NCBI GenBank assembly: GCA_013360825.1
Contig: JABWAY010000004.1
Span: 1 to 32,292 of the forward strand
Origin: Candidatus Brocadiia bacterium
GTDB taxonomy: Bacteria; Planctomycetota; MHYJ01; WSZJ01
Reading direction: 5' to 3'
Length of the DNA: 32,292 nt
Shown in pieces: positions 6,947 to 32,292 of the stretch. Within the stretch, counting starts at the first letter, position 1, and each line of letters begins with the position of its first letter. The position numbers and the translations under genes are program-made. Below the pieces are notes generated by a model. It made no database searches and had not been told where the DNA came from. It saw nothing but the letters and a program-made list of their open reading frames with translations.

Positions 6947-7696
6947 TCAGCGGCCGGGGACGGAGTACTGCTCGGCGTGGAGGACGCGTTCGACGAACTG
7001 CCGCAGCCGGTCGCGCGCCCCGGGATCGAGATCGACGAAGGCGATCCCGAGATCCCAGCCGCCCTCCGGCGAGGGGACCTGCCGGACGACCTGGCCGCGG
7101 CCGCGGACCGGCGCGGCCCCCGGGAGGTCGAGTTCCATCTGGAGGACGTCGCGGGCGCGGACCTCGTCCGCGGTCCGGAGGCAGACGCCCGTTTCGCTCA
7201 GGTTCAGGACGGTCCCGGGCCGGCGCGCGGCGGCGGCGTCTCCGTCCTTGAGCCATCGGACTCCCAGCCGCCGGGCGATCCGCCGGGCGCGCAGGAAGAA
7301 CGGCATCGCGGGCCGGTCGGCGCTGACATGGTCGAACGCACGCAGGATCTCGTCCCGGAGGTACGGTTTCTCGATGTAGGCCTTCACGCCGGCCGCGAGC
7401 GAGGCGGGGACGAGATTCCGGGTCTCGACCGAGCAGGTCACGACCACCCGGACGGCGGGGGCGGTCTCGATCAGGACGCGCGCCGCGTTCACCCAGCCCA
7501 CGCCGGGAGTGCTCGGGTGGTCCGGGAGCCCCAGGTCCACCGTGACCGCCCACGGCCCCAGGCGGTGGACGGCATCCAGAAGCGCGCGCCCGTGGGCCAC
7601 CGACCCGACGAAAGTGTAGTCGCTTCCCCTCAACAGCGTTCCGAACGCGACGCTGGCGACGGGACGGGGGTCGGCCACGAGGACGGAGCGGGGCAT
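6947..7696 (-). CDS. Response regulator with C-terminal PilZ domain
   Basis: REC-like VLVADPRPVASVAF...VTVDLGLPDHP...KAYIEKPY; PilZ-like GTVLNLSETGVCLRTADEVRARDVLQMELDLPG...DLGIAFVDLD. Confidence 0.8.
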   Translation of the reverse strand: MPRSVLVADPRPVASVAFGTLLRGSDYTFVGSVAHGRALLDAVHRLGPWAVTVDLGLPDHPSTPGVGWVNAARVLIETAPAVRVVVTCSVETRNLVPASLAAGVKAYIEKPYLRDEILRAFDHVSADRPAMPFFLRARRIARRLGVRWLKDGDAAAARRPGTVLNLSETGVCLRTADEVRARDVLQMELDLPGAAPVRGRGQVVRQVPSPEGGWDLGIAFVDLDPGARDRLRQFVERVLHAEQYSVPGR

Positions 7697-8592
7697 CAGC
7701 CGCGGTGTGAGCCGCCGGGGGAGGCGATCCTGCCGGAGGAGAGGGCGCGGGCGGCGGAGTCGATGGCGGCGTCCAGGCCGCGCGAGGGGTCCACGTCCAC
7801 GATCCCGGCGCGCGCCGTCCCGCCGGTTTTCACGCCGGCGTCCGCCAGGCGTTTTCCGAGACTCACCTGCGCCTTGCCCGCCACCTCGCGGGCCGCATCC
7901 GGCGCGAGATTCACGCTGAGCGCGACGAAATCTCCGCCGCGGAGGCGGGCCAGGACGTCGGCGTCGCTGAATTCCCCGCGCAGCACGTCGGCGATTTCCA
8001 TCAGCAGCATGGAGCCGTCGTCTCCGCGCGCGCCGATCCGCGTGTCCGGAATCGCCTCAAACACGAGCCGCGTCAGCGTCGGCCGCCGCCCCAGCTGGGC
8101 CGCGAGCCGCATCACCTGCTCCCCGACCACGTTGAACCCGCGAAGGTTGTACAGCCCCGTCACCGCATCGATGATCGCCAGGCTTTTCAGCTCCGCCTGG
8201 AGTTTGTGGCGTTCGACGGCGTAGAGAAGCGCGCGGGCGAGGACGGCGTCGGTGGCCTGGCCCTTGACCAGGTAGTCCTGGGCTCCCTCCTCCACGGCGC
8301 GGACGGCGACCTGTTCGTCGTCGAGACCGCTCATGACCACGACGGGGGCCCTGGCGCCGGCGGTGCGGACGCGGATGAAGGTTTCGAGACCCCGGCTGTC
8401 CGGGAGGGTCAGGTCGAGGAGGATGACGTCCCAGGCATCGGCGGCGGCCAGCCGGGAGAGGGCGTCGGAGAGGCGTTCGACGAGGGTGATGTTGAAACGC
8501 GCGCAGGAGGCGGACTCCAGGAACTCACGGATGAGCCGCGCGTCCCCGGGATTGTCCTCAACGAGCAGGACCTCAAGGCATTTGATGTCCAC
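7696..8592 (-). CDS. Response regulator with degenerate GGDEF domain
   Basis: [22 protein letters not shown]...VILLDLTLPDSRG...DYLVKGQ; then AIIDAVTGLYNLRGF and RLRGGDFVALSV (degenerate GGDEF). Confidence 0.8.
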   Translation of the reverse strand: MDIKCLEVLLVEDNPGDARLIREFLESASCARFNITLVERLSDALSRLAAADAWDVILLDLTLPDSRGLETFIRVRTAGARAPVVVMSGLDDEQVAVRAVEEGAQDYLVKGQATDAVLARALLYAVERHKLQAELKSLAIIDAVTGLYNLRGFNVVGEQVMRLAAQLGRRPTLTRLVFEAIPDTRIGARGDDGSMLLMEIADVLRGEFSDADVLARLRGGDFVALSVNLAPDAAREVAGKAQVSLGKRLADAGVKTGGTARAGIVDVDPSRGLDAAIDSAARALSSGRIASPGGSHRG

Positions 8593-8623
8593 GGTGTTCC
8601 CTTTCTCAAATGGGAATCAGGGA

Positions 8624-9370
8624 TCAGGAATTCAGGGCGGGGAGGGTGAACCAGACCGAGGCGCCGCGTCCGGACTCGCCGGAGGCGCCGAGGGTGCCGC
8701 CGTGGCGCTCGACGACGCGGCGCACCCAGGCCAGGCCGGCGCCGATGCCGGGGGCTTCGGCGCGGGTGACGAGGCGCTGGAAGAGCCTGAAGAGGCGGCC
8801 GGACTCCTCGGCCGGGAAGCCGGAGCCGTTGTCGCGGACGATGAATTTCCGGAAGGCGCCGGCGGGCTCGGCCTCGACGCGGATGTGGAGGGGGACGTCG
8901 GGGCGGCGGAATTTCAGGGCGTTGTCGATGAGGGTGGAGAAGGTGCGGGTGAGCTGGGCGGGGTCGGCGTGGACGACCGGGAGGAGGCCGGCCTCGAGCG
9001 TCGCCCCGGCGGCCGCGAGGGCCGGCGCGTGCTGGCGGCGGGCTTCTTCGAGGCAGCGCGCGCTTTCGACCATCCGCATCTCGCCGCCGCGCGTCTGGAC
9101 GCGGGAGATATCGAGGATGGCGGCGAGCATCTTCGAGAGCCGCGAGGCGCCGTCGACGGCGAAGCCGATGAACTCATTGGCGGTCGGGTCGAGCTGGGCG
9201 GCGTAGCGGCGCTGCAGCAGCTGGGTGTAGCTCGCCACCATCCGCACGGGTTCCTGCAGATCGTGGGACACGACGTAGAGGACCTGCTGGAGTTCCTCCC
9301 GCAGGCGGCGGTTCTCCTCCTCGAGCGCACCGGCCCGTGCGGGGGGTTGCGCGGACCCGGTCGGCTCCAT
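8624..9370 (-). CDS. Sensor histidine kinase (HisKA + HATPase_c)
   Basis: VVSHDLQEPVRMVASYTQLL (H-box), TLIDNALKF (N-box), VRDNGSGFPAE, GIGAGLAWVRRVVERHGG. Confidence 0.9.
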   Translation of the reverse strand: MEPTGSAQPPARAGALEEENRRLREELQQVLYVVSHDLQEPVRMVASYTQLLQRRYAAQLDPTANEFIGFAVDGASRLSKMLAAILDISRVQTRGGEMRMVESARCLEEARRQHAPALAAAGATLEAGLLPVVHADPAQLTRTFSTLIDNALKFRRPDVPLHIRVEAEPAGAFRKFIVRDNGSGFPAEESGRLFRLFQRLVTRAEAPGIGAGLAWVRRVVERHGGTLGASGESGRGASVWFTLPALNS

Positions 9371-9382
9371 GGGCGCCTCCTC

Positions 9383-9829
9383 CTACTGCTGGGGCAGCTT
9401 GACGATCGACAGCCAGAAGTTCTCGATCGACTGCACGACCTTGACGAACTGGTCGAGGTCGACCGGCTTGGTGACGTAGCAGTTCGCGCTGAGGTCGTAC
9501 GCGCGCAGGACATCCTCCTCCGCCTCGGAGGTCGTCAGCACCACCACCGGGATCCGCCGGAGCTTCTCATCCGACCGGATCTCCGTCAGGACCTGCCGGC
9601 CGTCCTTGCGGGGAAGGTTCAGGTCCAGCAGCACCAGGTCCGGACGCGCGGCCTCCTTGTACTTCCCTTCCCGTCTGAGATATTCCATCGCCTCCACGCC
9701 GTCCGAAACAACCGTCAGCCGGTTGAAGACCTTGGCTTCCTTCAGCAGCTCGACGGCGAGCCGGGCGTCGCCCGGATTGTCTTCGACGAGGAGGATTTCG
9801 ATCGGCTCTCCGAGGACCCGCGTGCTCAT
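9383..9829 (-). CDS. Rcp1-like single-domain response regulator
   Basis: ATG at 9829: [57 protein letters not shown]...[17 protein letters not shown]...[34 protein letters not shown]. Confidence 0.92.
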
Positions 9830-9934
9830 GGTGTGCTCCCTTGTGTCTCCGCGGCCATTGTGCCGGTGGCGGCGCCCGGGTCCAAGGGACATTCCTGTAC
9901 CGCGGCGAGGGGCGGGGGTGTTGTAATCCGCGCG

Positions 9935-11407
9935 ATGCCTGACGCTCCGCCGGGAGGGGGAACCCCGGCCGTGCCGGGGGAAGGAGACCTGGTCCGGCTG
10001 AAGAAGCTGCTCGAACGCGAATCGCACCTGCGGGGCGAGGCGGAGTCGATGTCCGCGGCGGCGCTGCGCGGGCTGCAGCAGAAGTACGCCGAGCTGGTGC
10101 ACGCCAACGCGCAGCTCGACCTGTTTCACCGGGTGGCGACGGCGGCGAACGCGGCGACCACACCGGCCGAGGTCTTCATGGCGGCCCTGGAGACGATCTC
10201 CCGCCATTTCGCCTGCCCGGTCGGGCACGTCTTCCTGCCGGATGCCCACGATCCCCGCGTGTTCGTCCCCTCCGACTGGTGGCAGCTCGCCGACCCGGCG
10301 AAGTACGCGGAGTTCCGGCGCGAAACCATGGCGGTGACCGTGATGCGCGGGCGGGGCCTCGTCGGCCGCGTCGTCGAGTCGCGCCGGCCGGAGTGGCTCC
10401 TCGACGTCCCGGTGGAGGCGCAGTTCCAGAGGGCCGCCGCCGCCGCGCGCTGCGGACTCCGGGGCGCGCTGGCCTTCCCCGTGATCTCCCGCGGCGGCGT
10501 CTCCGCCGTCCTCGAATTCTTCGCCGACCAGCCCCGTGAACCCTCCCGCCGGCAGCTCGAGACATTCGCCTTCATCGGCATCCACCTCGGGCGCGTCGCG
10601 GACCTCCTCGCCGCCGAAGCCCAGATGAAGGAAAAAGACGCCGAACTCGCCCACCAGCTCATGGAAATCCAGCACCTCGCCACCCTCTCCGCGCACGACC
10701 TCCAGGAACCGCTCCGCATGGTCGTGAGCTACCTCGAGCTCCTCCAGCGCAGGTTCTCGGGCCGGCTGGACCCCGGCGCCGACGAGTACATCGCCTTCGC
10801 CACCGGCGGCGCCCTGCGGATGAAGGGACTGCTCGGCGACTTCCTCACCTACGCGCGGCTCTGGGCCCCGCCGTCGAGGCACGACACCGTCAGCCCGCAG
10901 GAGATCGCGCAGCAGGTCGTCGCACGGTCCTCCCACCGCATCCGGGCGGCCGGGGCGGAGGTCACCGTCGCCCCCGATCTCCCGCTCGTGCGCGGGGAAC
11001 GCGCCGAACTCGCCGAATTGCTCGACGCCCTCTTCGACAACGCGCTGAAATTCCGCGGCGACGCCCCGCCGGTGATCGCCCTGACCTGGGAACGGCGGGG
11101 CCCCCAGGCGGTCTTCACGCTGAAGGACAACGGCCCCGGAATCGACCCGAAATTCCACGACAACCTCTTCTGGCTGTTCCGCCGGCTCCATCGCGAGGAG
11201 GACCGCGGCCGCGGGCTCGGACTCGCCAAGTCGCGGCGGATCGTGGAACGGCACGGAGGGCGGATCTGGGTGGAGTCCTCCCCCGGCCAGGGAACAGCGA
11301 TCCGCTTCACCCTCCCCCTCGCATCCGAAACGCGGCGCGAACCCGCACCGGGGACAGGCTCCTCTCCCGCCGCGCCTGCGGCCGGGCCCGATCCTCTCAA
11401 GGACTGA
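9935..11407 (+). CDS. GAF-domain sensor histidine kinase
   Basis: ATG at 9935: [29 protein letters not shown]...; GAF-like middle, [64 protein letters not shown]. Confidence 0.9.
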
Positions 11408-11661: not shown

Positions 11662-12627
11662 TCAGACCCCCTTGCCGATATAGGACTTCCATGTGGAAAA
11701 TGCCGCTGCCGCCCCGAGGAAGACCAGCGGAAACACGAAGATCCCCGTCCATCCCAGCCAGGCCGGGGGCAGAAACTCCAGGCTCCCCTCGAAGAACCGG
11801 GGGACCGGATCGAGCGACCGGAGAGCCGCGGTGCGCACGAAGCGGCTGAGCACGTACAGCTTGATTTCCAGGCGCCCGATCGTCGCCTCGACGATGACGG
11901 CGTAGGCCATCGCAATGAGGTATGGCCGGCCGAGGATCGCCCCGAGCGAGAAGAACAGCGTGCCGTAGAGGACGGCGCCCGCGGCGGAGGCGAAAAGCGC
12001 GGCGAACAGCTCCCGGGGCTGCGCGGGCGCGCGGTGGCTCGGGCGCGTCATCGTGACGAACTTCCCGGGCGATCCCTCGCGCATGCCCGGGCGCCGCTCG
12101 CCGGAATCGTCGTCCACCGCCCCGTCCTCCCCGCGGGGGACTGCGGTCCCCGAAGGGTCCGCCACCCAGGTCGTCGTCTCGTACGGCTGCACCTGCTTGA
12201 GCGCCAGCGGCCACGCCGCCAGCACCGGGATCATCGTGATCAGGGCCAGCGGGACGATGCAGCCGAGCCACTTCCCCACCACGATGAACGCCCGGGGAGT
12301 GGGACGGCAGTACAGATAGACGATGGTCCCGTCCTCCACATCCGAGGAGAAGGCGGGGACGGCGCCGAGGAGTGCGATAAAGAGGATCGCCCCCTGGAGG
12401 TAGAGCTGGTCGAACAGCTGGAGAAACGGGTGGTTCATCCCCTTCGGCTCGAGGAACACGAAGACCGAGAGCAGGGCCGGGAAGACGGAGCCGGCGAGCA
12501 GGAGGAGCCACTTGCGCGGTCCCTGCAGGAACTGGCGGAAGGAGAGGTGCGCCGCGGTGATCAGGCCGGTGATCGGGGACGTCGGGGCGGCGGGGGGCGG
12601 GGGCGGTGCGGTGGCGGGAGAGACCAT
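11662..12627 (-). CDS. ABC-2 type transporter permease
   Basis: Several TM segments (WLLLLAGSVFPALLSVFVFL, AILFIALLGAVPAFSSDVEDGTIVYLYCRPTPR); adjacent to ATPase gene. Confidence 0.8.
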   Translation of the reverse strand: MVSPATAPPPPPAAPTSPITGLITAAHLSFRQFLQGPRKWLLLLAGSVFPALLSVFVFLEPKGMNHPFLQLFDQLYLQGAILFIALLGAVPAFSSDVEDGTIVYLYCRPTPRAFIVVGKWLGCIVPLALITMIPVLAAWPLALKQVQPYETTTWVADPSGTAVPRGEDGAVDDDSGERRPGMREGSPGKFVTMTRPSHRAPAQPRELFAALFASAAGAVLYGTLFFSLGAILGRPYLIAMAYAVIVEATIGRLEIKLYVLSRFVRTAALRSLDPVPRFFEGSLEFLPPAWLGWTGIFVFPLVFLGAAAAFSTWKSYIGKGV

Positions 12628-13551
12628 TTATCCCTCGGTGAGATAGCGGAAGACGGCGTCGAGGTTGTCGTCCGGGCTCTCGATCTCGTGCACCGGGAGG
12701 CCTGCGTCGAGGAGGACCTGGGGAAGCGCGGCGTAGAAGGCGTCCGGCTGCGGCGTGCGGACGGTGACGACTCCCTCGCCGATATGGAGTTCCGTGACGC
12801 GCGGATCCCTCGCGAGGACCGCGGCGAGGTCGCGGCCCCGCGGGGTGCGCAGGCGGACGGAGTGCGGGTGGCGGTCGATCATCCCGCGGATTTCGCGGAC
12901 CTCACCCGCGGCCATGACCCGCCCCTTGTGGAGCAGGAGCAGGTGAGGGGTCATGGCCTCGACCTCGTGGAGGACATGGCTCGAGATGATCACGCTCCGC
13001 CCCTCGCGGCCGAGGGCCTTCACCAGGTCGATGACGTCCCGGCGGATGATCGGGTCGGCGCCGTTGAGCGGCTCGTCGAGGATGAGGAGTTCCGGGTCGT
13101 GCGAGAGGGCCTGGGCGAGCTTGAGCCGCTGGCGCATTCCCTTCGAATACCCGTAGATCTTCCGGTCCGCGAATTCCGCCGCCTTCACGCGGTCCAGCGC
13201 GGCGGACGCCCGGCGCGCGCGTTCCGGCCCGGCGAATCCGTGGATGCCGAGGAGGGTTTCGACGAACTCCCGGCCCGTCATGAACTCGAAGAAGTTGTCG
13301 TGGTCCGGGCAGTAGCCGATCCGGCGGTAGAGGTCCGGGTTGCCGAAAGCATGGGCGCCGAAGACGAGCGCGACGCCCTTGGACGGGCGCATCGAGCCCG
13401 TGAGGATCCGGAGGAACGTGGTCTTCCCCGCGCCGTTCTGGCCGAGGAGCCCCACGACCCCGCCCTGGAAGTTGAGCGTGACGTCCCGGAGGGCGACCAC
13501 CTGCCCGTACCAGCGGGTGACGTTCTGGAACTGGACCGCGAACTGGCTCAC
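12628..13551 (-). CDS. ABC transporter ATP-binding protein
   Basis: GTG at 13551: MSQFAVQFQNVTRWYGQVVALRDVTLNFQGGVVGLLGQNGAGKTTFLRILTG...YSKGMRQRLKLAQAL...LLILDEPLNGADP. Confidence 0.9.
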   Translation of the reverse strand: MSQFAVQFQNVTRWYGQVVALRDVTLNFQGGVVGLLGQNGAGKTTFLRILTGSMRPSKGVALVFGAHAFGNPDLYRRIGYCPDHDNFFEFMTGREFVETLLGIHGFAGPERARRASAALDRVKAAEFADRKIYGYSKGMRQRLKLAQALSHDPELLILDEPLNGADPIIRRDVIDLVKALGREGRSVIISSHVLHEVEAMTPHLLLLHKGRVMAAGEVREIRGMIDRHPHSVRLRTPRGRDLAAVLARDPRVTELHIGEGVVTVRTPQPDAFYAALPQVLLDAGLPVHEIESPDDNLDAVFRYLTEG

Positions 13552-14426
13552 GCGCGCCTCTCCGCATCGGCCGTGCGCCAGACGACCACGGACAGCGACA
13601 GGACGCTCACGCCCGCCAGGATCGCCAGGCTGATCCAGGGGCTGAACGGCATCATCTCGTGCAGGTCCAGCCCGGGCATCTTCGGCATCCGCGCCCCCCC
13701 GGCGGGCATCTCCGGCATCAGCGACGCCGAGATTTTCAGGACGTTCCGGTTCAGCGAGAGCAGGTATCCCCACTTGAGCTTCGCCGCATCCGTCAGGATC
13801 AGCGCGATCGCCTCGAGCATCAGGTAGACGACCGCGAATCCGATCCCGGCCAGGAAAGTCTTCCGGGTGCACGAGGAGAACGCCATGACGAGCGCGATCG
13901 CCGGGATGACGGCGATCGGGACCGAGAGCAGCACGGCGCCGGACAGCTGGGCCCCGTAGGCGGCCGTCGCCTTGTCCCCGAGCGCGTAGGTGGAGACCCC
14001 GATGCTGACCAGCGGGGAGAGCACGGCGGGCAGGAGGACCAGGACGGCGGCGGCGGCGAGTTTCCCCACGATGTAGTCCGCACGGACGATCGATTTCGAG
14101 AAGTACATGAGGAGGGCGTTGTGCTTCAGGTCGCTCGCCACCAGCCCGCTTCCCGCGACGGGCAGCACCAGCAGGCAGGTCCAGGTCAGCGAGGTGCTGA
14201 GCGCCGAGGCGGCGATGTATCCCGGATCGATCCCCGAAATCATCAGGCCGACGAAGGCTCCCGGCAGGGTCATCAGCATGGTGAGCCCGCCCAGGAGGGA
14301 CAGGGCGAGGGTATGGCGCCGGAAGATGTTCTTCGCGGTGGCCGTGGCGATCGCCAGGACGCGGAACGGGTGAGGCTGGAAGGTCCCCGTCCACGGCTGG
14401 TAGCTCTGGTCGAAGAGGGCGCTCAT
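13548..14426 (-). CDS. ABC-2 type transporter permease
   Basis: 292 aa multi-TM protein between two ATPase genes; 4-bp overlaps on both sides. Confidence 0.85.
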   Translation of the reverse strand: MSALFDQSYQPWTGTFQPHPFRVLAIATATAKNIFRRHTLALSLLGGLTMLMTLPGAFVGLMISGIDPGYIAASALSTSLTWTCLLVLPVAGSGLVASDLKHNALLMYFSKSIVRADYIVGKLAAAAVLVLLPAVLSPLVSIGVSTYALGDKATAAYGAQLSGAVLLSVPIAVIPAIALVMAFSSCTRKTFLAGIGFAVVYLMLEAIALILTDAAKLKWGYLLSLNRNVLKISASLMPEMPAGGARMPKMPGLDLHEMMPFSPWISLAILAGVSVLSLSVVVWRTADAERRA

Positions 14427-15355
14427 TTTTCCGCTGCCTCGATCAGTCCGGAGAAGACGTCCTCGAGCGATTTCTGCGCCGGCGCGAGGTGGCGGACCTG
14501 TGTCCCGGTGGCCGCCGCGGCCCGGAGCACCGGCGCGGTCGCCTCGAGATCCTCCACCGGGATCACCAGCCGGTCCGCCTCCGCGACCTCCCGCGGCGCG
14601 AGACCCTCCGCGCGGAGGGCGGCCTGGAACCGGGCGCGGTCGCCCCGGAACCGGAGGTCGAGCGCCTTCTCCGCGTGGCCGATGATCGCATCGAGCGGGC
14701 CCGCGGCCGCGAGCCGCCCGCGATGGAGAACGACGACCTCGTCGCAGACCGATTCGACGTCGTGGAGGATGTGGCTGGAAAGGACGACCGAAATCCCCTT
14801 CCGCGTCGAGATGTCGCGCACCAGCGCCAGCATCTCCTCCCGCCCCTTCGGGTCCAGGCCGTTGGTCGGCTCGTCGAGAAAGAGGAGTTTCGGGTGGTGG
14901 ACGAGCGCCTGCGCGAGCTGCACGCGCTGGAGCATGCCCGTGGAGTACGTGTCGATGTCCCGGTACCGCGCTTCCCCCAGGTCCAGGGCGCCGAGGACAT
15001 CGTGGGAGCGGGCGAGGGCGTCGCCGGCGGACATGCCGACGAGGCGGCCGGCGAGGCTGACGTACTGGACGGCGCTCATCCTCGGGATCATGGACCCGGA
15101 CTCCGGCATGAACCCGGTGACCTGGCGGATCCGGAGGGCCGCGCGCCGCGAGTCGAGGCCGAGGACGCCGGCGGTGCCGGCCGTGGGGCGGATCAGCCCG
15201 AGGAGGATCTTGATGAGGGTGGACTTTCCCGAGCCGTTGGGGCCGAGCAGTCCGATGGCGCGGCCGCTGACGGACAGGGAGACCCCCGCCAGGGCGCGGA
15301 TGTTCCCGTAGACCTTGGAGAGATCGGCGACCTGCAGAAGCGGGGGTGCGGACAT
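14423..15355 (-). CDS. ABC transporter ATP-binding protein
   Basis: LLGPNGSGKSTLIKILLGLIRPTAG; TGMLQRVQLAQALVHHPKLLFLDEPTNGLDPKGREEML. Confidence 0.93.
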   Translation of the reverse strand: MSAPPLLQVADLSKVYGNIRALAGVSLSVSGRAIGLLGPNGSGKSTLIKILLGLIRPTAGTAGVLGLDSRRAALRIRQVTGFMPESGSMIPRMSAVQYVSLAGRLVGMSAGDALARSHDVLGALDLGEARYRDIDTYSTGMLQRVQLAQALVHHPKLLFLDEPTNGLDPKGREEMLALVRDISTRKGISVVLSSHILHDVESVCDEVVVLHRGRLAAAGPLDAIIGHAEKALDLRFRGDRARFQAALRAEGLAPREVAEADRLVIPVEDLEATAPVLRAAAATGTQVRHLAPAQKSLEDVFSGLIEAAEK

Positions 15356-26880: not shown

Positions 26881-29043
26881 TCAGCCGACGAGTTTCTTCG
26901 ACAGCCATCCGCCCTTCTGCGCCCCCGTCAGGTCCTTCAGCATTTCGACCCCCTTCTTCCCGGCCACCCGGCCGTTCGAGATGTCGCGCATGACGACGCG
27001 GGCCCGATGGGCGCGCCAGATCGAGGCGAACGAGTCGAGGACGAGTTCCAGGGGGCCTGCGATCAGGCGCAGGACGCGTTTCCGCGGCCCCTCGGCCTTC
27101 GCGGCCTCCACGGCGGCCCCCTCGGCCGGGGCCTCCGGTTCCGCGGCGGAGGCCAGGAGGTCGTTGATGACCCGGCGCGTCCCGTAGTCGACGCTGGGGT
27201 TCTCGTCCAGGAACGCCTGCGCCTTCCGGCGGATCAGATCGCGTTCGAAGTCTTCCTGCTTCCCGCATTCCCGGATGAACGCCAGTCCCTTCTCCTGCAC
27301 CAGCGCGTCCCGGCTGCAGACGCGCTCGACGGCGCGGAGGAGGTCTCCCTGGCGGACCCAGCGTTCGGCGAAGTCGAGCCCCGTGCCCTTGATGTTCTGG
27401 ATCCCGAGCACGTGGACGCGCGCGTTGGGCGGGCACTGCGATCCGACCAGGCGGATCAGGTCCGGGCCCTTGATGTAGTAGTTCTCGACCGCCTGGACCG
27501 AGGAGAGGAACCACTGGCGGTACCAGGTCCGGTGGGAGTCCAGCCACGCCGCCAGCCCGGCGTCGCCGTCGGCGATCGCGGCTTCGAGGGCGCCGGCATG
27601 CGCGAGCACCGCGATGTAGCCCGTCACCGCGTCGCGCACCGCCCGCTCCTGCTCCTCCGTCGCGACCTGCCCGGCGGGAAGATGCGTCAGGACGAGCCCG
27701 ACCATCGCCTCCAGGTCCGGCGCGGCGGCCTCGATCGATGCCGCCAGCGCCTCCGGGTCCGCCTGCAGGATGTCCGCGCCCCGCCCGGCCAGCTCCCCGG
27801 GCGTCCGGCAGAGGAAGCGGAGCGCGGCCGTGTCCCGCCGCAGCACGCTCCGCAGGAATCCGGCCCGGTCTTCCGCCTTCGCCGGCAGGACCAGGCGGGA
27901 CAGACGCGCGTCCAGCGCCTCCTCGATGTACCCGCTCAGGCCGTTCAGGTTCGAGCCGATCAGGAAAATCCTGTGTGCGGCGAGGTCGTCGACCAGGATC
28001 GACGCGAAGACCTTGGACCGCGGCACGCGGTCCGCGCGGTTGTTCACGACCAGGACCGTCCACTCCCGCCGGTCCCCCTCCAGGTCGTCGAGCTTGAGGC
28101 GCCGCCAGTTGTTCATCGTCCCGGCCCGCTCGTTGGCCGAGCACCCGTTGGAGAATCGCAGGCGCCGGCCGCCGGCGACATGGATCTCCGGGTAGGTCTT
28201 GAGCACCCCGAGGTCGGGAACGACATGATCGGCGATTTCCTTGATCATGAAACCGTCCTGGAGCCCGAGGAGCATCCCCAGCTCGAAGGTGAGCGCGAGG
28301 TTCTTCGGGTGCACCGTGTACGGGAAACGCGCGAGCACGTCCGGAGTCATCAGGTCCGCCATGTCGGTGTCCGGCTCGATCAGGCGCGCCCCGCGCCGGC
28401 GCGCGAATTCGCGGAGGACGGGCTGGAAGTGCTGCTCGGTCTGGATCACCGTCGCGCCGAGGCCGACGAAGTTGGCGATCGCCTCGGAGACGTCGTGACC
28501 GGAAGGGCCCTGGATGTCCTCATGGTCCGGGTAGGTGTTGGTGATCGTGGAGATGTCGTCGGTCATCCAGGACTGCTGGAGGATGCGCACGTAGTCCGCC
28601 TGCAGCGCCATGCACTCCCAGAGCATGACGTCGGCCTGCATGTTCTCGGCGATCTCCAGGACGCTGCACTGTTCCCAGATCGTCGCCTTGTCGTGCGGGC
28701 GGAACAGGTAGTACTCCCGCGACTCCTCGTAGTCGTACGCCGTGACGAACATCGCCTCGCACCCCGTGGACTTGGAAAGCATCCGGTAGCCGAGCGCGTT
28801 GAACAGCGCCGCCTTCTTGCGCTCGCTTCCCGACTTTCCCCGCGTTCCCCACCCGCCGACGACGAGCGGGATCGCGCGGCGGGCGCGGCGGGCCCGCCAC
28901 TGGCGCCAGCAGCCGACGAAGACGAGGAACATCGTGACGCCGGCGACGAGGGCGAGAAGCTGGGGCAGGGTGTTTCCGCCCGGGCTGAACCACAGCTCGC
29001 CCCAGATCCGCCAGTTTTCGAGGAACCGGTCCCAGGTGTTCAT
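26881..29043 (-). CDS. PgsB/CapB-like poly-gamma-glutamate synthase ligase, enlarged form
   Basis: N-terminal TM segment; VVGGWGTRGKSGSERKKAALFNALGYRMLSKSTGCEAMF; LWECMALQADYVRILQQ; NTYPDHEDIQGPSGHDVSEAI; FSNGCSANERAGTMNNWRRL; LVVNNRADRVPRSKVFA; LGIQNIKGTG. These follow PgsB/CapB motif order. Confidence 0.85.
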   Translation of the reverse strand: MNTWDRFLENWRIWGELWFSPGGNTLPQLLALVAGVTMFLVFVGCWRQWRARRARRAIPLVVGGWGTRGKSGSERKKAALFNALGYRMLSKSTGCEAMFVTAYDYEESREYYLFRPHDKATIWEQCSVLEIAENMQADVMLWECMALQADYVRILQQSWMTDDISTITNTYPDHEDIQGPSGHDVSEAIANFVGLGATVIQTEQHFQPVLREFARRRGARLIEPDTDMADLMTPDVLARFPYTVHPKNLALTFELGMLLGLQDGFMIKEIADHVVPDLGVLKTYPEIHVAGGRRLRFSNGCSANERAGTMNNWRRLKLDDLEGDRREWTVLVVNNRADRVPRSKVFASILVDDLAAHRIFLIGSNLNGLSGYIEEALDARLSRLVLPAKAEDRAGFLRSVLRRDTAALRFLCRTPGELAGRGADILQADPEALAASIEAAAPDLEAMVGLVLTHLPAGQVATEEQERAVRDAVTGYIAVLAHAGALEAAIADGDAGLAAWLDSHRTWYRQWFLSSVQAVENYYIKGPDLIRLVGSQCPPNARVHVLGIQNIKGTGLDFAERWVRQGDLLRAVERVCSRDALVQEKGLAFIRECGKQEDFERDLIRRKAQAFLDENPSVDYGTRRVINDLLASAAEPEAPAEGAAVEAAKAEGPRKRVLRLIAGPLELVLDSFASIWRAHRARVVMRDISNGRVAGKKGVEMLKDLTGAQKGGWLSKKLVG

Positions 29044-31151
29044 GACGCGGGCGCCTCCTCCGGTGCCGCCGCCGGCTCCGCTCCCGCGAAGTAGGGCGCC
29101 GCCCAGGAGTGCTCCGGGGGCGCGTGGGGCTGGAACGCGACCGCGAATCCCAGCCGCCTCATTTCCTGGATGTAGGCGTTCGGAGGAATCTCGGCATTCC
29201 CGAACCGCGACTGCTCCCGCAGCGCCGCGAGAGACGCGTACGTCTTCGCGAACGCCCAGCGCAGCCTCCACCGCGCGCGGCGGTCCTGCGGGGGATCGAT
29301 CCGCACGACCCCCTCGCTCGAAAAGACCTTCACGCTTCCGAACTCCAGCGCGTCCAGGAAATCGTCGGGCAGGGGGAGGAAGCGCCGCCACCCGCCCTCC
29401 GCGGGCATCTGCACCGGCTCCCCCGGGACCTTGGTCGGCGACTCCTCGCCGAGCCCGAGCGGGTGGGCGCGGATCGTTCCCTCGTACCGGCGCGCCACGA
29501 CGTGAGAGTGGGCCTGCCGTTTGTCCGGCGCCGGATTCAGCGTCTCGTGGATCCACCGCCAGAGCCGCCACCGTTTCTGGTGCCCGACCGTCACGCGCCA
29601 GCCCCCGCCGGCGCCCCGGGGGAGGGCGTAGAGCCCGTAGGTCCTCCTCGAGAGCCAGGCCAGGAGCCGGCCGAGGACCTCTTCCTCCTCGGCGGAACCC
29701 GCCGCCTGGATGTCGACCTGTCCTTCCCGGTTCTGTTCCACGAGGAGGGGCATCACGGTCTCGCGGAAGCTGGCGAAGCCGGGGAGGGACGCGACGCGGA
29801 CGCGTTCGAGCAGGTCCTCGCAGGCGCTCCGGATCGTCGGGCTCCACTCCTTCTGGACGCCCTTCGCGACCAGCTCGAGCGCGAACTGTTCCGCGACGGC
29901 GCCGTCGAACTGGCCGACGGAGATGAGCTGCTCGAGCGCGTCTCCGGCATGGCGGATGGCGACGCGGAGGGGCATGGGGTCTTCTTCGCGTTCGAACAGG
30001 AGGCGCCACTCCTGGAATGCGATTTCCGCGCCGTGGGGCTGGAGGGCCCAGCGCCCGAGGGTGAGCGAGATGGCGGCGCGGACCTCCGGGACCGGGTCCC
30101 ACTCCTCCCTCATGAGGACGTACTCCCGCAGGAGCGGCCAGGAGCGGTCGGCGTCGCGGGCGCCGAGGGCGAGGATGGCGCCCTGCCGGACATACGGGGA
30201 CGGATCCGGGCCGGCCAGGACGGCCTGCACCAGGTCGAGGGAGGACACCTCGTCGAGGGCGTCGTTCCCGCGCTCGATGAGGAAGCGCCGCACGAAGATA
30301 TCGTCGGGGATGCGGGGATCGGGGTTGCGCAGGCGTTGCCGCGCGAGCCGCAGGGCGTCGACGGGGGAGGCGAGCAGCCAGGCCTGAAGCGCCGAGCACT
30401 GCACCCAGGTGTCGGCCCAGGGATTCTGCGCCCGCACGGCCAGCGCGTGGAGCGCGGCGGGGTCGATCACGATTCCCTGCTTCGGGTTGCGGTTCGCGCG
30501 GAGAATCGACACCAGGGCGTCGATCCACTCGCGCTCGAGGTGGACCGGCAGCCGCAGCTGCATCGCCCTGTGGAACGACTCCAGGAACCCGGTCTTCTCC
30601 ATCACGTCGGCCGGCGTGCGGCCCCGGTCGGGACCGCAGCGGGAGAGCGCGCGGGACGAGAGGAAGACGAGGGTCTGCTGGAAACGCCGGGCGGAGCGCT
30701 GGGCGCGGCGAGCGAGCTCGAGGATGGCCTCCCAGTCCATGAACCGCCCGAAGGCGGCGCGGTCCCCGCGCAGCTGCTCGGGGGTCCGGCGGAGGAACTG
30801 AAGCGTGTCGAGGTAGAGCGACTCGCGCTCGGCGGAGGTGGAGGCATACCGGAGCGCGGCCTCCTGGACCCCCAGGTGCGTGTCGATCTCCTGGATCCGG
30901 TTCTCCGCCCGCTCGATGCAGCGGACCGCCCCGCCGATCATCGCGAGGTACGGATCCCGCTTGAGCATCGGGTCGAGCCCCGGAAACACGGTGCGGACGG
31001 CCCCGACGGCGCGGGTCAGGTGGCGCGACATGAGCCGGCGCATCAGCGGCGGGACCGGGCGGAGGACGTCGTCGATCACGCCGTCCAGCGCCCGTCCGCT
31101 GACCTCGCGGGTGTCCGGCGCCCTCTCAAAGGACCGCGTTACTGTCGCCAC
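29040..31151 (-). CDS. HEAT-like repeat helical protein of unknown function
   Basis: GTG at 31151: MATVTRSFERAPDTREVSGRALDGVIDDVLRPVPPLMRRLMSRHLTRAV...; repeat-like helices (SSLDLVQAVLAGPDPSPYVRQGAILALGARDADRSWPLLREYVLMREEWDPVPEVRAAISLTLGRWAL). Confidence 0.75.
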   Translation of the reverse strand: MATVTRSFERAPDTREVSGRALDGVIDDVLRPVPPLMRRLMSRHLTRAVGAVRTVFPGLDPMLKRDPYLAMIGGAVRCIERAENRIQEIDTHLGVQEAALRYASTSAERESLYLDTLQFLRRTPEQLRGDRAAFGRFMDWEAILELARRAQRSARRFQQTLVFLSSRALSRCGPDRGRTPADVMEKTGFLESFHRAMQLRLPVHLEREWIDALVSILRANRNPKQGIVIDPAALHALAVRAQNPWADTWVQCSALQAWLLASPVDALRLARQRLRNPDPRIPDDIFVRRFLIERGNDALDEVSSLDLVQAVLAGPDPSPYVRQGAILALGARDADRSWPLLREYVLMREEWDPVPEVRAAISLTLGRWALQPHGAEIAFQEWRLLFEREEDPMPLRVAIRHAGDALEQLISVGQFDGAVAEQFALELVAKGVQKEWSPTIRSACEDLLERVRVASLPGFASFRETVMPLLVEQNREGQVDIQAAGSAEEEEVLGRLLAWLSRRTYGLYALPRGAGGGWRVTVGHQKRWRLWRWIHETLNPAPDKRQAHSHVVARRYEGTIRAHPLGLGEESPTKVPGEPVQMPAEGGWRRFLPLPDDFLDALEFGSVKVFSSEGVVRIDPPQDRRARWRLRWAFAKTYASLAALREQSRFGNAEIPPNAYIQEMRRLGFAVAFQPHAPPEHSWAAPYFAGAEPAAAPEEAPAS

Positions 31152-32292
31152 GGAAACCTCGCTTCCTGATACCGCTCGAACCGCTGCAGTTCCGGGTCGA
31201 TGTGTTCGTGTCGCGTGCCGTCGCGGCCGCCGAACCGGAAGGTGAGGGAGGCGCGCACCTCGCGTTCGTGGTCGTCGAAATCGTAGGAGAAGCCGGCGCC
31301 GGCGGACATCCAGGTGCCGCGTCCGAGCCAGGTTTCCCATGCGACGTCGAGGGCGGCGATGCGGGAGGACGTCCGCCGGGAACGGTGGTCGTCGTCGATG
31401 CGAAGGACGCGCACGACGGAGAACTCGGCGAAGAGATCCTCGTGGTGGGCCTGGACGTCGACGCCGTAGGTCCAGCGGTCGGGATCCCACGGGAGGAGGG
31501 AGCGGTTGGAGCGGGTGCCGGCGCGCATGTCGATGCGGACATTCTGCCACGGGATGGCGCGCAGGCGGATGTCGGCGGCAAGCCAGCGATCGTGGTCGTC
31601 GCGATAGTCGTTGTGGATGAGCGGGTGCGGCTCGATTGAGGCGGCGCGCCGGTCGCCCAGGGAGGACCACCAGGAGTTCATCGAGGCCGCGACGAACAGG
31701 ATCCACTGTTCGTCGAGGACCTGGCGCCATCGCAGGCGAGCATCGGTCTCGTAGGAGTAGCCGGTGTAGCCGTGGAGATTCTCCACCCACCCCTGGACGA
31801 TCACCCGCGCGCTGAGGTCGGGGCGCGTGCTGAACGTGTAGTTGGCGCGGATCTCGGCCCCGAGCAGAACCGGGTAGGTCGCGGCCTTCCGGGCCTCGAG
31901 GCTGAAGCGGGCGTAGAAGGGCGCCTCGAACGGCTTCCAGTGGAGGCGCGCACCGGAACGGATCTCGTCCACGTCGGCGTTGTCGCCGTCGCGGAATTCG
32001 CCCGCGTGCCGGAGGGCGCCCGCGACATTGAGTTCCAGGATGCCGGGGTACTCCACCAGCCGCCACTGCTCCCGCTCCCCTTCGCGCGGCCCCGGGATCC
32101 GGTCCGGTGCGGGCGGCGCGACGGCCTCGGCGGCCATATCGCCGCGGGGAACGGGGGGCGACACCGCCCGCGCGAGGGCCGCGCCGTCCACCGTGCGGAC
32201 CGCCAGGCGCACGAACGAGTCGCCGGGAATCTCGAACTCCGCTTCCCCCGCCCCCGCCCGGGCGACGCCGGACAGGAAGGTCCGCGAGATGG
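31139..32292 (-). CDS. Outer-membrane beta-barrel-like protein (5' end beyond right edge)
   Basis: Open through the right edge (...ISRTFLSGVARAGAGEAEFEIPGDSFV-RLAVRTVDG...); alternating amphipathic aromatic strands (FYARFSLEARKAATYPVLLGAEIRANYTFSTRPDLSARVIVQGWVENLHGYTGYSYETDARLRW); ends near ASLTFRFGGRDG. Confidence 0.65.
   Translation of the reverse strand, partial: ISRTFLSGVARAGAGEAEFEIPGDSFVRLAVRTVDGAALARAVSPPVPRGDMAAEAVAPPAPDRIPGPREGEREQWRLVEYPGILELNVAGALRHAGEFRDGDNADVDEIRSGARLHWKPFEAPFYARFSLEARKAATYPVLLGAEIRANYTFSTRPDLSARVIVQGWVENLHGYTGYSYETDARLRWRQVLDEQWILFVAASMNSWWSSLGDRRAASIEPHPLIHNDYRDDHDRWLAADIRLRAIPWQNVRIDMRAGTRSNRSLLPWDPDRWTYGVDVQAHHEDLFAEFSVVRVLRIDDDHRSRRTSSRIAALDVAWETWLGRGTWMSAGAGFSYDFDDHEREVRASLTFRFGGRDGTRHEHIDPELQRFERYQEARFPWRQ

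Follow-up and report, generated by a model that had tools for sequence, protein, structure and literature searches.

Introduction

Amide-linked polymers are familiar chiefly from Bacillus-type PgsBCA. In this system (PgsBCA/CapBCA; TIGR04012, TIGR04011/PF14102 and PF09587) a ligase with Mur-ligase-type core motifs has a PgsC-family protein as its membrane partner. The known poly-glutamate-type loci of diderm bacteria are of the capBCA type, for example in Cloacimonadota (PMC13082233) and, as cited in PMC4497714, in Fusobacterium.

Here we analyze a stretch of 32,292 nucleotides (JABWAY010000004.1, the window hereafter) from a Candidatus Brocadiia bacterium (GCA_013360825.1). Three genes at its right end are the downstream end of a large gene cluster that is widely conserved in diderm bacteria. 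The cluster shares with the Bacillus system the core motifs of the ligase and the PgsC-family partner. On the other hand, its ligase is enlarged and tied to a HEAT protein, PgsC is doubled and has additional periplasmic sequence, PgsA is as a rule absent, and a two-component pair, large secreted proteins, a barrel and a putative amidohydrolase are added. Open-access literature searched for PgsB with HEAT, PgsB with the outer membrane, PGA in Planctomycetes and PgsC in diderms gave no description of this cluster; most subscription journals lie outside that literature, so the novelty is provisional. The 'CapC' of the lipocone paper, which came up as a candidate, is CapCone and is unrelated to the cluster.

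The truncated operon and its complete form

The window is the entire contig C23 of a planctomycete metagenome-assembled genome (4.25 Mb in 532 contigs, 87.8% complete) and, as a complete contig, leaves the operon truncated at the right end. Its three minus-strand genes (Table 1) overlap by 13 bp (HEAT and barrel genes) and 4 bp (ligase and HEAT genes), and the gene coordinates confirm the preliminary description on this point. The remainder of the window contains a minus-strand series of two-component signalling genes (receivers and kinase-like proteins, 6947-11254), unrelated to the cluster, and four minus-strand genes resembling two ABC transporter ATPases that alternate with two membrane proteins (11662-15355).

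Table 1. Features of the three cluster genes in the window, with the evidence for each.
Feature	Position	Strand	Evidence
Enlarged PgsB/CapB-type (Mur-ligase-like) amide ligase, 720 aa, one predicted N-terminal transmembrane helix	26881..29043	-	TIGR04012, homology
C-terminal tail QKGGWL of the ligase, in the extension missing from canonical PgsB	26902..26919	-	Retained in the majority of distant homologues
GIQNIKGTGLDF motif of the ligase	27370..27405	-	Aligns with GVGNIGGLG at the end of canonical PgsB; long insertion between motif and core
P-loop GGWGTRGKSG of the ligase	28828..28857	-	Invariant in nine-sequence alignment; GTRGKS also in canonical PgsB
Predicted transmembrane helix of the ligase, residues 26-44	28912..28968	-	Hydropathy scan
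HEAT-like protein, 703 aa	29040..31151	-	HEAT_2, E = 9.8e-5, below gathering
Best HEAT_2 match, residues 303-360 of the HEAT-like protein	30072..30245	-	Pfam
Last 383 aa of a large secreted protein with a C-terminal outer-membrane beta-barrel	31139..32290	-	5' part lost at contig end
14 predicted barrel strands, residues 83-353	31232..32044	-	AlphaFold2/DSSP

In a congener, a single contig (L024, L025) holds the intact cluster, with the genes in the order receiver (149 aa), histidine kinase (889 aa), tandem PgsC (1,049 aa), anchored protein (1,387 aa, with a single N-terminal transmembrane helix), secreted barrel protein (1,980 aa), HEAT (698 aa) and PgsB (725 aa), and a convergent dapF-like gene comes after PgsB, as in the window. 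Upstream of the receiver and kinase, the congeners examined have UbiB-type kinase-like and tetratricopeptide-like genes (L007:3311-5818). The left half of the cluster was found on contig C412 of the window genome, which terminates within the tandem-PgsC gene. The two flanks of the congener contig match C412 and C23, and the intervening ~9 kb are missing from the window genome; this stretch would contain the end of tandem PgsC, the 1,387-aa protein and the start of the barrel protein. No match to the 1,387-aa protein or to residues 1-1,598 of the barrel protein was found in the window assembly, nor was a bridging contig. Such an absence is expected from an assembly gap of ~9 kb, although the sequences may also be truly lost. 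The lack of PgsC remarked on in the preliminary description is therefore correct for the window but is an artefact of the contig edge, given the tandem PgsC in the congener cluster and on C412.

A second, canonical system in the same genome

Three matches to the CapC domain were found in the window genome, distributed over contigs C412 and C417. The latter contig encodes CapA (PGA_cap, E = 3.3e-50), a secreted barrel-like protein, PgsB (403 bits), PgsC (133 bits) and a TIGR04332 poly-gamma-glutamate system protein (304 bits), the last three all over the curated cut-offs. A further secreted protein also belongs to this canonical operon (L008:4001-11520), which is conserved in congeners. Like the cluster, it combines PgsB and PgsC with a barrel-like secreted protein but, unlike it, has CapA, a single PgsC and no HEAT protein. 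With a canonical operon present on C417, the window cluster is a second system, and the C417 operon is another amide-polymer locus, with a probable outer-membrane part of its own. Between one of its proteins and the very large barrel protein there is a weak similarity, which is only suggestive since the profile was iterated.

One could think of the cluster as an ordinary poly-gamma-glutamate capsule operon that has just diverged, being redundant with the canonical copy in the window genus. It does encode PgsB and PgsC homologues, and its accessory hydrolase, described below, has a PghP-like fold. We find this improbable, however: the canonical operon is separate and equipped with its own CapA, barrel-like protein, PgsC and TIGR04332 protein, and the tandem PgsC, the HEAT protein, the two-component pair and most of the secreted parts have no counterpart in pgsBCA. 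In addition, canonical PgsB occurs in all five genomes of the window genus but in none of the other four families with the window type, which hold the window type only. The preliminary description had set against its own reading a canonical operon elsewhere in the genome together with a scattered locus in relatives; the operon exists, but the locus is not scattered.

The ligase and its HEAT partner

The ligase matches TIGR04012 with E = 7.3e-55 over residues 33-375. It had been described as a clear PgsB/CapB homologue, and this match and its motifs agree with homology, although its score of 186.2 bits is below the equivalog cut-off of 222.7. The orthologues in relatives reach 179-218 bits, and identity with the canonical PgsB of the window genome is 30%. 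No meaningful match was obtained in a PDB sequence search with the ligase profile. In an alignment of nine sequences from five families, GGWGTRGKSG, K..GCEAM, ECMAL, PDHED.QGP, NG.SANER, NNR.DR and QNIKGTG are invariant, and the motifs GTRGKS, K(T/S)TG, ECM(A/G)L, TN..xDHxD..GP, ANxR and NI.G.G are common to the ligase and canonical PgsB. The window ligase therefore contains the Mur-ligase-type P-loop and the core ligase motifs. Aligned to canonical PgsB, it has matching core motifs and differs by a long insertion ahead of the last motif and by an extended C-terminus, for which QKGGWL is the usual end. As the core motifs are kept, while the insertion, the extension and the score set it apart, window-type PgsB looks like an active ligase beyond the curated PgsB group, and its substrate or product may differ. 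An alternative is that the ligase fold was co-opted for envelope sensing or scaffolding and makes no product. The histidine kinase, the receiver and the HEAT scaffold are always associated with it, as such a role would lead one to expect, but the nucleotide-binding and core ligase motifs are invariant across distant phyla, and we regard this explanation as highly improbable.

Neither a signal peptide nor a transmembrane helix is predicted in the HEAT-like protein. HEAT_2 scores above gathering in one of its homologues and, judging from these profile matches, the similarity of the window copy is weak but real, as the preliminary description had proposed for the middle gene. In most other lineages HEAT forms the N-terminal part of a HEAT-PgsB fusion (46 named loci), whereas in 4 loci it has a gene of its own next to that of PgsB, although L117, among these 4, may only reflect a split introduced by gene calling. 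The window belongs to the type with separate genes. The fusions place HEAT ahead of the single predicted transmembrane helix of PgsB, and the stand-alone HEAT protein has no signal peptide. These features suggest that the topology is unusual or, alternatively, that the PgsB helix is not membrane-spanning.

The barrel protein

The barrel fragment of the window shares 51% identity with residues 1599-1979 of the 1,980-aa protein of the congener and has no match in Pfam or NCBIfam. Its AlphaFold2 model contains 14 antiparallel strands of 10-17 residues each, with pLDDT > 90 over most of the barrel. The top Foldseek match is the 14-strand porin OmpG (E = 2.9e-11), and AlgE and the PgaA barrel (4y25) are also among the matches; identities of 9-11% indicate a fold class, with no family assignment. 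The product of the first gene, called beta-barrel-like in the preliminary description, thus does model as a barrel. Apart from the barrel, no recognized export domain was found with Pfam in the 1,980-aa protein, and neither this protein nor the 1,387-aa one belongs to a Pfam family. A TPR part was suspected in the 1,980-aa protein and was dropped, with no TPR match in Pfam.

Tandem PgsC and the putative accessory hydrolase

The tandem-PgsC protein, encoded in the same cluster as PgsB, has two PF14102 domains above gathering, and its 51 bits against TIGR04011 are below the PgsC equivalog score (at least 96.45). It carries ~600-680 aa of extra periplasmic sequence with regions similar to the accessory hydrolase, two of them in one relative. 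From their sequences, these regions appear to be devoid of the metal-binding histidines.

Most clusters add this secreted hydrolase, of about 250-365 aa, but no separate copy was found in the window genus (five congeners searched). It has no match in Pfam, nor a meaningful one when its profile was searched against PDB sequences. Its structure model (pLDDT 91.5) resembles, at 11-17% identity, Atu2144 (2odf, E = 3.5e-5), which has an N-formylglutamate-amidohydrolase-like fold, and the phage gamma-PGA hydrolase PghP (3a9l, E = 2.5e-4), a zinc enzyme related to carboxypeptidase A (PMC4497714). Aspartoacylase and succinylglutamate desuccinylase are further best folds. The residues P122, H123, T130, R153, D160, H189, G190, N249, E267 and R273 are invariant, and D127 and H265 nearly so. 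The protein models as an M14-like zinc amidohydrolase, H123, H189 and E267 being the putative metal ligands, and shares its fold and apparent zinc-site residues with PghP and with the N-formylglutamate amidohydrolase and aspartoacylase folds.

These observations could also be explained if short amide-linked amino-acid chains are put on an envelope component, or short periplasmic oligomers are made, with no secreted polymer, the hydrolase and the degenerate PgsC-fused copies balancing synthesis and removal, on the analogy of ligase/protease loci like rim and rlo. The ligase falls outside the PgsB equivalog, and the periplasmic domains fused to PgsC, homologues of the hydrolase, have apparently lost its metal-binding residues. 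Likewise, the rlo operon of P. aeruginosa pairs a cytosolic ligase-like protein with a secreted protease and a multi-pass membrane protein whose enzyme domain is inactive (PMC12239564). The rlo/rim systems of Pseudomonas share this layout with the cluster, but they have an ATP-grasp ligase, an inactive transglutaminase and an aspartic protease, with no barrel and no PgsB or PgsC. A large barrel protein in most clusters, and a separate barrel-like gene in alphaproteobacteria, instead point to passage or display at the outer membrane. We therefore hold the short-chain explanation to be unlikely, though less so than an ordinary capsule operon.

Distribution and variants of the cluster

The window-type ligase and the tandem PgsC were found in the same 9 of 99 relatives (window genome included), distributed over five families. 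In a scan of GTDB species genomes, 336 loci were confirmed as relatives. The best 80 of these come from Planctomycetota, Alpha-, Beta- and Gammaproteobacteria, Myxococcota, Acidobacteriota, Nitrospirota, Desulfobacterota, Verrucomicrobiota, Poribacteria and Wallbacteria, and no monoderm record was seen among them. From 30 named genomes with the ligase that were tested, 29 have tandem PgsC, usually just upstream (<3 kb from the fetched stretch in ~20 genomes by coordinate comparison), with a distance of ~23-92 kb in three Sorangium genomes. Among the 35 loci with enough upstream sequence, the barrel-protein family was found in 22, the hydrolase in 25 and the anchored protein in 25, the misses including poor gene calls as well as true absence. 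Low-GC loci, where gene calling fails, were left out of these counts and of those of fused and separate HEAT and PgsB. Half of the protein families of the cluster have no Pfam model.

Alphaproteobacteria have a short version with kinase, receiver, tandem PgsC, an anchored protein of ~255 aa, usually the hydrolase, and HEAT-PgsB, adjoined by a barrel-like gene. In five of them, a separate family of small secreted barrel-like proteins lies beside the cluster (L064:167-1015, L081, L103, L116 and L120). This small protein possibly replaces the large barrel protein. CapA/PgsA was not found in the congener clusters, and a homologue is near only two named loci: L106 (13209-15443) and L099 have CapA/PGA_cap homologues near HEAT-PgsB, unlike all other genomes examined. 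The lack of PgsA is no obstacle to synthesis, as B. subtilis with pgsBC alone produces abundant PGA (PMC6029982).

Proposed mechanism and implications

Taking together the gene set and order, the fusion, the co-occurrence, the conserved ligase motifs and the folds of the barrel and hydrolase, we suggest that the cluster is probably a trans-envelope system of diderm bacteria for the synthesis and export of an amide polymer. In the cytoplasm, the PgsB-type ligase, fused to or docked on the HEAT scaffold, would join amino acids by amide bonds with ATP. The substrate is probably glutamate or another acidic amino acid, considering the ligase family and the nearest folds of the hydrolase. The tandem-PgsC protein would be the partner of the ligase and carry the growing chain through the inner membrane, and the membrane-anchored periplasmic protein and the very large secreted protein would guide it to the C-terminal 14-strand barrel, which may let the chain pass or anchor it in the outer membrane. 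The secreted zinc amidohydrolase, lacking in the window genus but present in most lineages, would trim or release the product. The CHASE2-type histidine kinase and the stand-alone receiver would control the system. The central suggestion of the preliminary description, that PgsB-type amide ligation is coupled to the outer membrane in a diderm system, is strongly supported by the barrel model and by a cross-phylum cluster that includes a PgsC homologue; its interpretation as a whole is partly supported.

The layout is analogous to that of the Bcs, Pga and Alg exporters, with cytoplasmic synthesis, an inner-membrane partner, a periplasmic part and a dedicated barrel. However, an amide ligase takes the place of the glycosyltransferase, there is no sequence homology and no TPR match, and the top barrel match is OmpG. 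More tentatively, and with rather less confidence than in the export system itself, we propose that the cluster may represent a widespread class of trans-envelope machines moving an amino-acid polymer, possibly not polyglutamate, through their own outer-membrane pore, as the amide counterpart of cellulose, PNAG and alginate secretion. If the cluster makes an amide polymer, many Gram-negative groups, among them relatives of Marinobacter, Halomonas, Methylovulum, Sorangium and Erythrobacter, would carry a novel envelope polymer and a dedicated route for its export and, since cultured carriers exist, the question is open to direct test.
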